A stretch of 64,000 bases of DNA from Methanocalculus natronophilus (GTDB lineage: Archaea; Halobacteriota; Methanomicrobia; Methanomicrobiales; Methanocorpusculaceae), in NCBI RefSeq assembly GCF_038751955.1, contig NZ_JBCEXH010000001.1:142300-206299 (forward strand), read 5' to 3'. Shown here piece after piece: positions 2,331 to 49,287 of this stretch. The notes under the pieces were generated by a model that worked only from the letters and a program-made list of their open reading frames with translations, searched no databases and had not been told where the DNA came from. The translations under genes and the position numbers were made by a program. Each line of letters begins with the position of its first letter. The stretch's first letter is position 1.

Positions 2331-2816
2331 TCAACGTTTTCCAAGGTGGTGATCGAGTTGGAAGAGCCCGCCGGTTGAGTCCCCGATCTTCTCAAGTTTT
2401 GCGACGATTTCTGAGGCGTTTGCCTCTTCCTCAACCTGTTCGGAGACAAACCACTGGAGCATGATCTCCGAGGCATAGTCTTTCTGTTTGATTGCTTCTG
2501 CCATCATCGTGTTGATCATCTGCGTGACCTTCTGCTCATGGGCATATACCTCCCTGAAAAGGGTAAGCGGATCTTTCCATTCTGCTTTTGGAGCATCTAT
2601 TGCAGCAAGTTTAACTGTTCCTCCACGCTCGTTGAGATAATCATAGAACTTCATTGCATGCTCAAGTTCCTCCTGTGCCTGAAGGCGAAGCCAGTGGGCA
2701 AATCCATTCCATGTCTCTTTGGTGCACCATGCAGACATGGAGAGGTACAGGTACGATGAGTACAGTTCCGCATTGATCTGGTTGTTGATTAGGTCTTCCA
2801 TCTTATTTCCTATCAT
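2331..2816 (-). CDS. ftnA: Ferritin (non-haem, FtnA type)
   Basis: Iron-storage ferritin of 161 residues, the usual length, assembling in the cytoplasm into a 24-mer that oxidises Fe(II) and stores Fe(III). The four-helix fold carries the ferroxidase ligands E17, E50 and H53 (motif EELEHAMKFY), and a later helix ends QWFVSEQVEEE. An in-frame GTG sits three codons earlier, but the ATG at 2816 is preceded by GGTGA at the right spacing, so I start there. It is transcribed toward copA. A 7-bp inverted repeat lies about 20 bp upstream of the start and could be an operator. Confidence 0.95.
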   Translation of the reverse strand: MIGNKMEDLINNQINAELYSSYLYLSMSAWCTKETWNGFAHWLRLQAQEELEHAMKFYDYLNERGGTVKLAAIDAPKAEWKDPLTLFREVYAHEQKVTQMINTMMAEAIKQKDYASEIMLQWFVSEQVEEEANASEIVAKLEKIGDSTGGLFQLDHHLGKR

Positions 2817-18962: not shown

Positions 18963-19784
18963 TCAGGAAGCAATCTCAGCTGATGCGTGTGGATCAAAGG
19001 GATTTGTCCGCACAGAGAGCGAGAAGAGGTACGGGTAGTGATTTTTCAGGTACTCCATGTAGTCGAGCCACCCGATAAGCAGGTGAAGAACCACCCGTTC
19101 ACAATCCCGGGAAAGATGCATAAGGTCAGGTTCAGAGAGATCCCTCAGATCCCGCCGTGCCGAGAGTTCATCTCCAAAATGGGAGAGCGCGGTAATCATC
19201 TCTGCAAACGGTTCGTCTTCGAAGAGCATCGGGTGCTGGAGGAGCTGGATCATCACTCCCCGCTTCCGTGAGAGAAACTGTTCCAAAGCCACCAGATCTA
19301 TCTTCCCGAGTTCACAGCGGCACTCCATCCCAAGAAGACTCTTTCGGGCTGCTCCAAACCGTCTCGCATCCCAGTCATCCCCGATGAGGAGATCATCTCT
19401 GCCTGACAGAACAGACGGAACAGCGTCTTTCAGCCGGTATATACAGGGAACACCAAGCTCAGAGAAGAAGACGCCGATCAGCATCCCGATTTTTTTCTTC
19501 CTGGCCTGCTGGTTGCTCCGTGAGACCGTCATGTCTATGATATAGGCAATGACGGTAAGAAACGTGCCGACACCGGCAAGGATCAACAGAAGGACAAGGG
19601 TGCGGCCGGCATCGGTCTTTGGAACAATATCGCCATACCCGACTGTTGCGATAGTCACGATGATGAAATATACCGCCTCAAAGAGCGAGAGACCCTCAAG
19701 TGCCGCAAGGCCAAGAGATCCGACGAGGAAGACCAGGAGAAGAATCCCAAGGTAGAGACGAAAACGCTGATCATCAGTTCCCAT
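18963..19784 (-). CDS. Two-TM potassium channel-like protein
   Basis: A 273-residue ion channel subunit. Two membrane helices (about 12-32 and 70-92) flank a pore loop with the K+ selectivity filter TVGYGD at residues 47-52. The C-terminal ~170 residues are cytoplasmic and do not look like an RCK/TrkA-N nucleotide-binding domain (no GxGxxG); they may be a ligand-binding or assembly region. An in-frame TTG lies at 19811, but the ATG at 19784 is the likely start. Tail to tail with the kinase at 17267, leaving only 4 bp. Confidence 0.85.
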   Translation of the reverse strand: MGTDDQRFRLYLGILLLVFLVGSLGLAALEGLSLFEAVYFIIVTIATVGYGDIVPKTDAGRTLVLLLILAGVGTFLTVIAYIIDMTVSRSNQQARKKKIGMLIGVFFSELGVPCIYRLKDAVPSVLSGRDDLLIGDDWDARRFGAARKSLLGMECRCELGKIDLVALEQFLSRKRGVMIQLLQHPMLFEDEPFAEMITALSHFGDELSARRDLRDLSEPDLMHLSRDCERVVLHLLIGWLDYMEYLKNHYPYLFSLSVRTNPFDPHASAEIAS

Positions 19785-28349: not shown

Positions 28350-28361
28350 TTATTATAATTC
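28350..28361 (+). promoter_or_regulatory. TATA region of the DUF2193 operon
   Basis: TTATTATAATTC, about 25-30 bp before the centre of the palindrome at 28379-28398. The transcription start therefore probably falls inside the palindrome. Confidence 0.55.
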
Positions 28362-28378: not shown

Positions 28379-28398
28379 TAATCGGATCGATCCGATTA
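28379..28398. promoter_or_regulatory. Perfect 20-bp palindrome, likely operator
   Basis: Half-site TAATCGGATC followed by its exact reverse complement. It overlaps the predicted transcription start and lies 16 bp before the DUF2193 ATG, with the ribosome site (GAGGTG) just after it. A palindrome of this length by chance at a promoter is very unlikely; a dimeric repressor or activator is the simplest reading. Confidence 0.7.
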
Positions 28399-28413
28399 TG
28401 AGAGGTGTGACAA

Positions 28414-29913
28414 ATGACAAAACTCTATCGAAAAATTATCGCTGAGGCGATGGCTGCCCAACGGGCAGATGTTGAGACCATTAAGCAGAAGCGGGGGACG
28501 CAGTTCACCCTGTCAGATGTTGAGCCCTATGTGGAGGCTGTGAAGAAGATGATGCCCATTGAAGGGCAGAGTGAAGCAGTCATTAATCTCCACAAGACAT
28601 CGGTTGTATCCCATTTCAACGCCTTAAATGGACTTACAAAGACTATACGCCCGGAAGACGACCCGTTTGTTGAGCATTACCAGACACCGGTTGTGCTTGA
28701 GATCCTCTCTGACGAGGACAAATCATTTGCCAAGAGCATGGATGCCTTTGTCAGCCGGATTGGCAAGTCTGAGGCGCTCATCGGGCGTGAATCTGCACGC
28801 CGCTATGCAGGATTCTACGGACCAACCTGTGTGGTCGACTTTGCGCTGATCCCGGGGAGCACAAGTGCCGTTGTGAACCAGATCCTGAAAAAGACAGATA
28901 TTCCTGAAGCTCACAAAAAAACAATACTGGCAGCAAAATCCTGGGGAATGAACACATCATATGGTGTCGGGGAAGTCTTTGCCACACAGATCGAGGAAGG
29001 CGACACCCTTGCTGATGCAAGCGCAAAAGAGGTGAAACAGATCCAGGAGATCTATAAGAATCCAGTGAAAGCCCAGGCTGAGCTGATGGATGGCGCCGGC
29101 CACACCTCATTTGATGTCAGGAAATACATGGACAAGTACCGGGAGCATATCACCCCTGCAGTGAAGGCAGCAATTGATGATGGCGTCCATTATGGGAATA
29201 TCGTCACAATCCCCGCATACTGTGTCGGAGATATTGCCCACCATATCGCACAGTCCACATTCAACATGTGCAAGGATGACGTGATCATGGCAACCATTGA
29301 CGCAGTCACCGGTGTGATGGAGAAGACGCTGGATGCCGGTGTCGATACCATGAAGAGCGAGTTCGATATCCTCTCGGTTGCAACCGGTGCATCAGCCTGT
29401 GCAACAGAATATATCCTGGAACTCGACGGATTCAACGCACCGATGATCGTTGATCTCCTCACCAAGCGCTTCCACAACCTCGTCCAGCTCAACCCGACCA
29501 GGGGTGCTGCTGCTGAACTGCATAACTGCGACTTCATGGATATGCTCTACCGGGGATGGAAGATCCTTGACCGGGCACGGAGAGGAACTGCCGGATCAGG
29601 CGAGAAGCTCGTCCCGAAAGTGGCTGGCTGTGAGATCGATCTCTCTCCGATACACGAGAACGAGGTGCTGATGAACCCGCAATGGTATGCATACCCCGCC
29701 TGTGCCATCACCGTGAGGGCATCAGCCCTGATGCGGCTCTCAGACTACCCGTGCCTGCTGACAAGTGAGCCGGTAACTGCCACGATGATGACCAATATCA
29801 TCGCCCTCAACAAGGAATGGGCAGCAGCCCCGGTTCGTGCCTGCAAGGATTGTGCAGCCGCATGCCTTGTTGACTTCAGGCACCAGTACTGTGAATACAA
29901 GGATGCAGTCTGA
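28414..29913 (+). CDS. DUF2193 family protein
   Basis: A 499-residue soluble protein that I place in DUF2193, a family known from methanogens and of unknown function. The start reads KLYRKIIAEAMAAQRADVETIK. Conserved-looking acidic and histidine residues (GAGHTSFDVRKYMDKY, VGDIAHHIAQSTFNMC) hint at a metal or cofactor site, and a C-terminal cysteine cluster CKDCAAACLVDF could bind a metal or Fe-S centre. The start has GAGGTG eight bases upstream. It is first in an operon with DUF2180 and an aquaporin. Confidence 0.85.
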   Translation: MTKLYRKIIAEAMAAQRADVETIKQKRGTQFTLSDVEPYVEAVKKMMPIEGQSEAVINLHKTSVVSHFNALNGLTKTIRPEDDPFVEHYQTPVVLEILSDEDKSFAKSMDAFVSRIGKSEALIGRESARRYAGFYGPTCVVDFALIPGSTSAVVNQILKKTDIPEAHKKTILAAKSWGMNTSYGVGEVFATQIEEGDTLADASAKEVKQIQEIYKNPVKAQAELMDGAGHTSFDVRKYMDKYREHITPAVKAAIDDGVHYGNIVTIPAYCVGDIAHHIAQSTFNMCKDDVIMATIDAVTGVMEKTLDAGVDTMKSEFDILSVATGASACATEYILELDGFNAPMIVDLLTKRFHNLVQLNPTRGAAAELHNCDFMDMLYRGWKILDRARRGTAGSGEKLVPKVAGCEIDLSPIHENEVLMNPQWYAYPACAITVRASALMRLSDYPCLLTSEPVTATMMTNIIALNKEWAAAPVRACKDCAAACLVDFRHQYCEYKDAV

Positions 29914-29928
29914 TCCGTGGTGAAGACC

Positions 29929-30135
29929 ATGAAATGCTATATCTGTGCAGAACAGGGAAAAGACACCGATGCTGTTGCAATCTGTATTGTATGCGGCATG
30001 GGTGTCTGTATGGACCATGCAATACGGGAAGAGATCGAGAAATGGGAGGGTGGATATCCCTTCCCGGCAAAGAAGCTCAAACTGAGCATCCCACGCATTC
30101 TCTGCCCTCCATGCTATAATGCAATGAAATCGTGA
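29929..30135 (+). CDS. DUF2180 small zinc-binding protein, 68 aa
   Basis: ATG 29929 with GGTGA five bases upstream (two in-frame GTGs earlier are less likely). The peptide has CYIC at residues 3-6, CIVCGMGVC around 19-27, MDH, and CPPC near the end, forming a B-box-like double zinc finger. It belongs to the DUF2180 family of archaeal small proteins. Situated 15 bp after DUF2193, and before the aquaporin; probably a regulatory or scaffold protein of this operon. Confidence 0.85.
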   Translation: MKCYICAEQGKDTDAVAICIVCGMGVCMDHAIREEIEKWEGGYPFPAKKLKLSIPRILCPPCYNAMKS

Positions 30136-30144
30136 GGTGCGGAG

Positions 30145-30882
30145 ATGTCTCTACTGAAAAAATGTGTTGCTGAGCTTATCGGAACATTTATGCTCGTCTT
30201 CTTTGGAGCAGGTGCAGCCGCAATAACCCTGATGCTTGCAAAAGGAGAACAACCCATGTCTGATTTTAGTATCGGTATTGGGTATCTCGGTGGACTTGGG
30301 GACTGGCTTGCCATCGGTCTTGCCTTTGGTCTTGTAATAGCCGCTTCCATTTACGCACTCGGAAGAATATCCGGCGCCCATATCAACCCGGCTGTAACGA
30401 TTGCACTCTGGGCAACAAAACGGTTCCCAACCAGAGAAGTGCCACCCTATATCATCGCCCAGCTCATCGGAGCAACTATGGCAAGTGTTCTCTTCTTTGC
30501 CTGCGCAGGTCCTGAATCGGTCACCACCGGCGGACTTGGTGCAACTGCCCCCTTCCCGGGTATCACCTATAGCCAGGCGATCCTGGTTGAGGCCATTGGA
30601 ACATTCCTCCTGATGCTTGTCATCATGGGGGTGGCAGTTGATAAACGGGCACCCGAGGGCTTTGCAGGGCTGACCATCGGTCTTACGGTAGCAGGTATCA
30701 TCACCACAATCGGAAACATTTCAGGTTCAGCAATCAATCCGGCCCGTACATTTGGCCCCTATGTCGGAAACACCCTTTTCGGCGGTGATAACCTCTGGGA
30801 GTTCTTCCCGATCTATGTCATTGGCCCGATAGCTGGTGCACTGGTTGCAGTATTCCTCTATGACTGGCTGAACTCTGAGTAA
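30145..30882 (+). CDS. MIP family aquaporin (AqpM-like)
   Basis: A 245-residue channel of six membrane helices with two half-helices carrying NPA motifs: HINPAVT (N81) and AINPARTFGP (N198). The arginine after the second NPA is the selectivity-filter Arg. Isoleucine precedes both Asn, as in archaeal AqpM, which conducts water and also small neutral solutes such as glycerol, CO2 or H2S poorly or well depending on the filter. The ribosome site lies in the 9-bp gap after DUF2180, so the three genes form one operon. Confidence 0.92.
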   Translation: MSLLKKCVAELIGTFMLVFFGAGAAAITLMLAKGEQPMSDFSIGIGYLGGLGDWLAIGLAFGLVIAASIYALGRISGAHINPAVTIALWATKRFPTREVPPYIIAQLIGATMASVLFFACAGPESVTTGGLGATAPFPGITYSQAILVEAIGTFLLMLVIMGVAVDKRAPEGFAGLTIGLTVAGIITTIGNISGSAINPARTFGPYVGNTLFGGDNLWEFFPIYVIGPIAGALVAVFLYDWLNSE

Positions 30883-30961: not shown

Positions 30962-31531
30962 ATGGCAACAGTAATCCTGATGAACGCAAGCCCCCGTGCA
31001 GGGGGGAATACCGAATGTCTGCTTGAAGAATGCAGAAAGGCAATCGAGGCAGAAGGTGTCGGAACAAAAATTATCAGCCTCCGGGGAAAGCAGATAGCAT
31101 CCTGCATTGCATGCTACTCCTGCAAAAAGACCGGGAAATGTGCACTTGATGATGGTGTGAACGAGATGATCGAGGAGATCCGCTCGGCCGATGGCCTGGT
31201 TCTTGCAAGCCCGGTCTATTTTGGAACGGCACGTGGAGATCTGATGGCTGCCATCCAGAGGATCGGTATGGTGTCGCGTGGGAATGACCAGTTCCTCTCA
31301 CGAATGGTCGGCGGACCAATTGCAGTAGCACGAAGAGGCGGGCACACGGCGACGATCCAGGAACTCCTGATGTTCTATCTTATCAATGACATGATCGTCT
31401 GCGGATCAACCTACTGGAACATGGCCTTTGGCAAAGAAGCCGGTGAAGTGCAGTCAGATACCGAAGGACTTGACACTATCCGGAGATTTGGAGAGAATGT
31501 CGGGTTCTGTGTACAAAAGCTAAAAAAATAA
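30962..31531 (+). CDS. Flavodoxin-fold NADPH-dependent FMN reductase / iron-sulfur flavoprotein-like
   Basis: A 189-residue FMN-binding protein: phosphate loop NASPRAGGNTE (residues 9-19), cysteine motif CIACYSCKKTGKC (46-58), and FMN ring loop SPVYFGTARGD. The cysteine spacing resembles that of iron-sulfur flavoproteins of methanogens (Isf), which pass electrons between ferredoxin and O2/peroxide, but also occurs in NADPH:FMN reductases without a cluster. Possible leaderless start; a TATA-like TTTTTACATAC lies about 35 bp upstream. Confidence 0.85.
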   Translation: MATVILMNASPRAGGNTECLLEECRKAIEAEGVGTKIISLRGKQIASCIACYSCKKTGKCALDDGVNEMIEEIRSADGLVLASPVYFGTARGDLMAAIQRIGMVSRGNDQFLSRMVGGPIAVARRGGHTATIQELLMFYLINDMIVCGSTYWNMAFGKEAGEVQSDTEGLDTIRRFGENVGFCVQKLKK

Positions 31532-48754: not shown

Positions 48755-49237
48755 TTATTCGATCTGGATCGGGCGCACCGCAGTCGGTTCTGTCTTCTTC
48801 AGGCGTACTTCAAGGACACCGTTCTTAAATGTCGCTAAAGCACCCTCCTCGGTGACGTCGACAGGCATCGATACGACACGGCGCATCGATCCATAGAACC
48901 GCTCTCTCATGAAGTAGTTCTCCTGTTCATCCTTCTCTTCAGTGCTCTGCCGGGTTGCGATCTCAAGGGTCCTGGAATCATGGAGCCGGAGCTGGACATC
49001 TTCTTTCTGAAGTCCCGGGAGATCCGCAACGACGACCACGTCATCATCATGGTCGCTGACATCGACCCTGAACTCGCCCTTGAGTGCAGGCATAATGCGG
49101 TCTGCCATTCCACCTTCCGGGAGCATGGGGCGGGCGCCGGAGAACATGTCCTGGAACCGCGCCTCCATCTCTGCCATCATATCATCGATCTCCCGGCCAA
49201 GTGATCCAAATGGATATCTTCGTCTTCCCCATACCAT
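48755..49237 (-). CDS. Small heat-shock protein Hsp20
   Basis: A 160-residue alpha-crystallin-type chaperone that binds unfolding proteins. N-terminal helical arm (REIDDMMAEMEARFQDMF), then the crystallin domain (GEFRVDVSDHDDDVVVVADLPGLQKEDVQLRL ... MRRVVSMPVDVTEEGALATFKNGVLEVRLKK) and the IxI-like tail RPIQIE. ATG 49237 has GGAGG eight bases upstream. Its leader carries two adjacent palindromes, probable heat-shock operators. Confidence 0.95.
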   Translation of the reverse strand: MVWGRRRYPFGSLGREIDDMMAEMEARFQDMFSGARPMLPEGGMADRIMPALKGEFRVDVSDHDDDVVVVADLPGLQKEDVQLRLHDSRTLEIATRQSTEEKDEQENYFMRERFYGSMRRVVSMPVDVTEEGALATFKNGVLEVRLKKTEPTAVRPIQIE

Positions 49238-49254: not shown

Positions 49255-49287
49255 GCCACACCTGTGGTGTGGCTAACCCCTGGTTAG
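49255..49287. promoter_or_regulatory. Two adjacent palindromes in the hsp20 leader
   Basis: GCCACACC-TGT-GGTGTGGC (49255-49273) and CTAACC-CCT-GGTTAG (49273-49287) share one base. On the minus strand they follow the TATA (49297-49306) by about 15-25 bp, so they cover the transcription start and the leader just before the ribosome site. Placement fits a repressor such as an archaeal heat-shock regulator (Phr-like). The pair could also fold as tandem RNA hairpins that melt with heat and control translation. Confidence 0.65.

Follow-up and report, generated by a model that had tools for sequence, protein, structure and literature searches.

In bacteria, a hairpin at the 5' end and the ribosome-binding site are both named as determinants of mRNA stability, and for B. 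subtilis messages either one of the two is described as stabilizing (PMC3997798). The ompA and papA mRNAs of E. coli and the leader of B. subtilis aprE each open with a short stem-loop that directly precedes the ribosome site. The element considered here, in front of the gene for a DUF2193 protein, would have the same arrangement, but it is archaeal and begins at a predicted transcription start. Methanogens offer a second comparison: in Methanosarcina mazei zm-15, the stabilization of methanol-pathway mRNAs has reportedly been linked by Cao et al. in 2014 to the 5' leader, although the leaders concerned are reportedly longer and the genes are different ones. Archaeal stem-loops in leaders seem little documented as elements of expression, an impression drawn from titles and abstracts: among those listed on stem-loops and RNase J, none of this kind appears apart from one that was predicted, a stem-loop masking the ribosome-binding site in Methanolobus psychrophilus (PMC5378194). 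At the level of DNA, the HSR1 operator of Archaeoglobus fulgidus resembles the present element in being a palindrome of an archaeal promoter close to where transcription begins, with CTAAC-N5-GTTAG as its reported site (PMC9133787).

The window, the whole stretch of 64,000 nt of Methanocalculus DNA that was analyzed, contains TAATCGGATCGATCCGATTA at positions 28379-28398, a 20-bp palindrome with no mismatches. The first-pass annotation placed this perfect palindrome at the promoter of genes for DUF2193, DUF2180, and an aquaporin, and those genes do lie downstream. As RNA read from the forward strand it is a stem of 8 bp with a UCGA loop (TAATCGGA-TCGA-TCCGATTA in the DNA). Within the 18-40 nt upstream, TTATTATA at 28350-28357 on the same strand comes closest to a TATA consensus and would be the promoter element; the palindrome begins 25 nt downstream of its middle. 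That spacing makes plausible the annotation's further statement that the half-sites span the transcription start, with the start itself a prediction; a literature search found no published transcription starts for Methanocalculus. On the other side, 3 nt separate the stem from a Shine-Dalgarno sequence, GAGGTG, at 28402-28407 (forward strand), and the palindrome ends 15 nt upstream of the DUF2193 ATG at 28414.

TAATCGGATCGATCCGATTA is the sole match to itself at up to 3 mismatches both in the window, where 100 shuffles give 0, and across the entire draft genome of 2.0 Mb. Perfect palindromes whose arms reach 10 bp or more are rare in this genome, yet not unheard of. In 400,827 bases of it there are 4, TAATCGGATCGATCCGATTA included, against an expected number of about 0.4 (4^-10 per position), so the palindrome by itself is unusual but weak evidence.

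The sample of the genus consists of eight Methanocalculus genomes, all of which encode DUF2193, and in all eight an inverted repeat precedes the gene at the same place; conservation upstream of orthologues was the check that the annotation had proposed. The 5' end of the stem lies at -32 to -35, 25-29 nt past the midpoint of a TATA-like element, which would put it at the transcription start, and 3-7 nt separate the stem from GAGGTG. The stems are short, 4-8 bp, and their letters differ. Besides the window's own arms there are ATCGGGC-N4-GCCCGAT in four genomes, TCGGGC-N4-GCCCGA in another, and CGGG-N5-CCCG and TCGGG-N5-CCCGA in one each. All eight retain a CGG..CCG core, five of them being nearly identical, with a spacer between CGG and CCG of 6, 7, or 8 bp. 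The Shine-Dalgarno sequence is unpaired in six of the eight predicted folds and partly paired in the other two (G006 and G003).

When the sequences are aligned on the center of the repeat, 85.7% of the cells in a 7-pair stem are paired, whereas sliding the partner leaves 51.8% at best. Covariation in the same stem is 0.224, a value that stems mainly from one sequence, that of the window, and that needs the centered alignment (an alignment on ATCGG shortens the loop by 2 instead); slid versions reach no more than 0.087 and 0 of 500 shuffles reach 0.224. Four of the seven pairs are altered on both sides in the window relative to the consensus of the centered alignment, and since the double changes are all the window's own, they represent few independent events.

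Nine neighboring genes served as controls, taken from the window and five named loci of the genus, with one to five leaders per gene according to the starts that could be placed. Their leaders have no conserved hairpin: WC scores run from 5 to 13 and their positions scatter, whereas all six DUF2193 leaders score 14-19 at -33 to -35. By stem score the window's hairpin ranks 7th of 141 leaders. The idea that leader hairpins form a class across the genome was tested and rejected, since a strong stem precedes the start in 31 of 243 leaders, many with naively called starts and some of these within genes, and there is no enrichment over the stretch 60 nt further upstream, which also has 31 of 243. 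The 243 leaders come from 760,827 genomic bases, and shuffling gives 19.5 strong stems. L139:4647 is an example of a naive start: for most relatives, homology within the genus sets in about 33 residues downstream of it. As strong stems are not general in leaders and this one ranks 7th, the evidence for the element is its conservation, not its strength.

Beyond the genus, 83 DUF2193 leaders were collected (80 named loci and three others), of which 82 were folded, L061 having been dropped for too little upstream DNA. The folding z-score falls below -2 in 19 of the 82, against 15 of 156 control leaders; the two sets, in which loci are related, differ with p = 0.002 by z-scores and p = 0.05 by raw folding energies. 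Seven Methanoculleus-like leaders have a common 9-bp stem at the same place, unrelated to that of Methanocalculus and with three doubly changed pairs plus U-G wobbles, and nine Methanoregula-like leaders have a weaker common stem, GGCACC/GGTGCC, both groups of rows having been picked after stems were seen there. No such hairpin was found in the DUF2193 leaders of Methanocorpusculum, a member of the same family, nor in most of those from Methanothrix. Other genera of the Methanomicrobiales vary, some having unrelated hairpins at the same place and others none. The leader stem must therefore have been gained or lost on more than one occasion, unless it is simply easy to replace.

I propose, with somewhat more belief than doubt, that the palindrome encodes a short stem-loop located at, or very close to, the 5' end of the mRNA for DUF2193, DUF2180, and AqpM (and perhaps a following FMN reductase), and that the stem-loop slows decay of the message and frees its ribosome site. 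What the relatives keep is base-pairing, not letters, which makes an RNA hairpin most likely. Transcription would start roughly where the palindrome does, and the messenger would open with the hairpin, followed after 3-7 nt by the Shine-Dalgarno sequence. A stem-loop so placed would hinder decay that depends on the 5' end, with an RNase J family protein as the candidate nuclease. The genome does encode a protein of this family (471.6 bits, the cut-off being 400), and a 5'-3' exoribonuclease of the aCPSF2 group has been reported from another archaeon, Sulfolobus (PMC3792030). The hairpin would also stop RNA that lies upstream of the ribosome site from pairing with it and so would keep the site open. 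The outcome would be a stable, well-translated mRNA. What the sequences show is where the element lies, that its pairing is kept, that its spacing varies, and that it is unique in the genome; in this model, the start, the folding of the RNA in the cell, and the stabilization are what I infer.

The first-pass annotation took another view, that a dedicated dimeric regulator was likely. In that case the palindrome would be an operator in the DNA, placed where transcription begins, through which a dimeric repressor acts on the DUF2193 operon. A perfect dyad at the predicted start is a location that suits a repressor, a core kept in 8/8 genomes (5 nearly identical) is what one would hope to see in an operator, and symmetrical change is also expected of a palindromic DNA site. 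How operator-type motifs behave in this genus may be judged from an internal example, 21 kb from the DUF2193 element, in front of an HSP20 gene (48758-49237, reverse strand) that had originally been picked as a negative control. Its promoter contains CTAAC-N5-GTTA(G), a motif of the HSR1 type, with a spacing of 5 bp and near-invariant arms in 7/7 genus genomes; the eighth has no HSP20 protein match. The DUF2193 element is unlike this, as its half-sites are 6, 7, or 8 bp apart in the orthologues and its arms change by paired substitutions. The further promoter sites that the annotation hoped for were sought throughout the genome at up to 3 mismatches, and none was found. Across the genus, six matches at up to 2 mismatches lie outside DUF2193, five inside ORFs and the sixth (L132) in DNA where ORF calling at 90 aa gave nothing. 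A regulon based on the palindrome or its genus consensus was rejected for want of a second convincing promoter site in the genome or the genus, though an operator with a single site would fail the same search. A divergent response-regulator gene is missing beside DUF2193 in two (L043 and L044) of the five named loci of the genus in which the hairpin is present, and only its receiver domain is recognized, with no HTH family. The variable spacing, the paired changes, and the lack of a second promoter site favor an RNA stem-loop; a DNA site bound by a dimeric regulator fits them less well, and I consider the operator unlikely.

The element might instead be a regulated RNA that sets how far the operon is translated, as the target of an RNA-binding protein, as a thermometer, or as a ligand sensor. 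The stem adjoins the Shine-Dalgarno sequence at a nearly constant distance, and two other genes in the window, those for HSP20 and ferritin, also have conserved leader hairpins. At 49255-49287 (reverse strand), the CTAAC-N5-GTTAG motif overlaps the start of a second, covarying stem close to the Shine-Dalgarno sequence of HSP20, seen in 7/7 genus genomes with the gene; its arms are, for example, GCCACAC/GTGTGGC, ACCACAC/GTGTGGT, or GCCATA/TATGGC, with loops of 3-7 nt across the seven. The ferritin gene (2334-2816, reverse strand) has a leader stem at 2837-2853 on that strand, TTGCCGC-N3-GCGGCA, which recurs in the same or a closely variant form in 8/8 genomes of the genus, and in five of the eight the folds also pair the Shine-Dalgarno region with upstream bases in an outer helix. 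No stem like it was seen by eye in the 25 leaders read from among 38 genomes outside the genus that have a ferritin match. The three stems, however, have no letters in common, no Rfam family reaches the gathering threshold in the DUF2193 leader (the window's hits are 2 tRNAs only), and a Shine-Dalgarno sequence that is open in 6/8 folds presents no obvious off state. A regulated element strikes me as distinctly improbable. Finally, there might be nothing more here than a chance palindrome in the window together with recent common descent, and the modest excess of perfect palindromes in the genome (the 4 with arms of at least 10 bp in 400,827 bases) lends this some color. Yet position, pairing, and distance to the Shine-Dalgarno sequence are kept in 8/8 while the letters change, and the nine neighboring leaders behave otherwise; chance is already disfavored, and I give it very little credence.

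The hairpins in front of DUF2193, ferritin, and HSP20 allow a broader idea, that the DUF2193-DUF2180-AqpM mRNA and those for ferritin and HSP20, a small set related to stress or iron, form a post-transcriptional stress regulon in Methanocalculus. Its mark would be stems close to the Shine-Dalgarno sequence that go on pairing as their letters drift and that the ribosome, a nuclease, or an RNA-binding protein would read. This is a long shot. As a separate observation, locus L234 has, at about 19121-19136 (reverse strand), a palindrome, ACCGGTTGCAACCGGT, at -47 of a thioredoxin gene.

The operon downstream of the proposed stem-loop encodes, on the forward strand, the DUF2193 protein (PF09959, 499 aa, 28414-29913), a DUF2180 protein (PF09947, 72 aa, 29917-30135), and an AqpM-type aquaporin, or MIP channel (30145-30882), whose best PDB matches, 3ne2 and 2evu, are AqpM. 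An NADPH-dependent FMN reductase family protein (30962-31531, forward strand) is probably encoded on the same transcript, judging from order and strand. The operon is strikingly conserved: 76 of the 80 named loci retain the order of the first three genes, and of the remaining four, L055 and L105 are at contig ends and L101 and L122 are not. In those last two the contig continues, with DUF2193 but neither DUF2180 nor the aquaporin nearby. In the phylum sample of 295 genomes, 105 have a DUF2193 match that exceeds the family cut-off. Its fold is predicted confidently, as mostly helical, the pLDDT being 35.7 from a single sequence and 90.9 with 40 sequences. No close solved fold or credible solved relative was found by phmmer or, with the whole-chain model, by Foldseek (best E 0.035) or a second structure comparison (best Z 3.9). 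Its C-terminal cysteines are conserved in an alignment of homologues (A4). DUF2180 is not covered in the AqpM literature among the matches listed.

Both ferritin and DUF2193 have listed positions in six genomes of genus g5, and in five of them (G040, G045, G050, G055, and G261, not G035) ferritin is encoded on the strand of the DUF2193 operon and 0.4-2.9 kb upstream of it; a Methanofollis locus, L069, likewise has ferritin upstream of DUF2193. The DUF2193 protein of Methanococcus voltae is reported to be more abundant on FeS2 (PMC9431491). The operon's neighbors and this published proteome hint at iron, sulfur, or redox stress, and a role for the operon there is a reasonable guess. If the stem-loop does act on the stability and translation of its mRNA, then the hunt for the function of the DUF2193-DUF2180-AqpM operon would move from a missing transcription factor to the fate of a message, and Methanocalculus, which can be cultured, would provide a compact, testable case.
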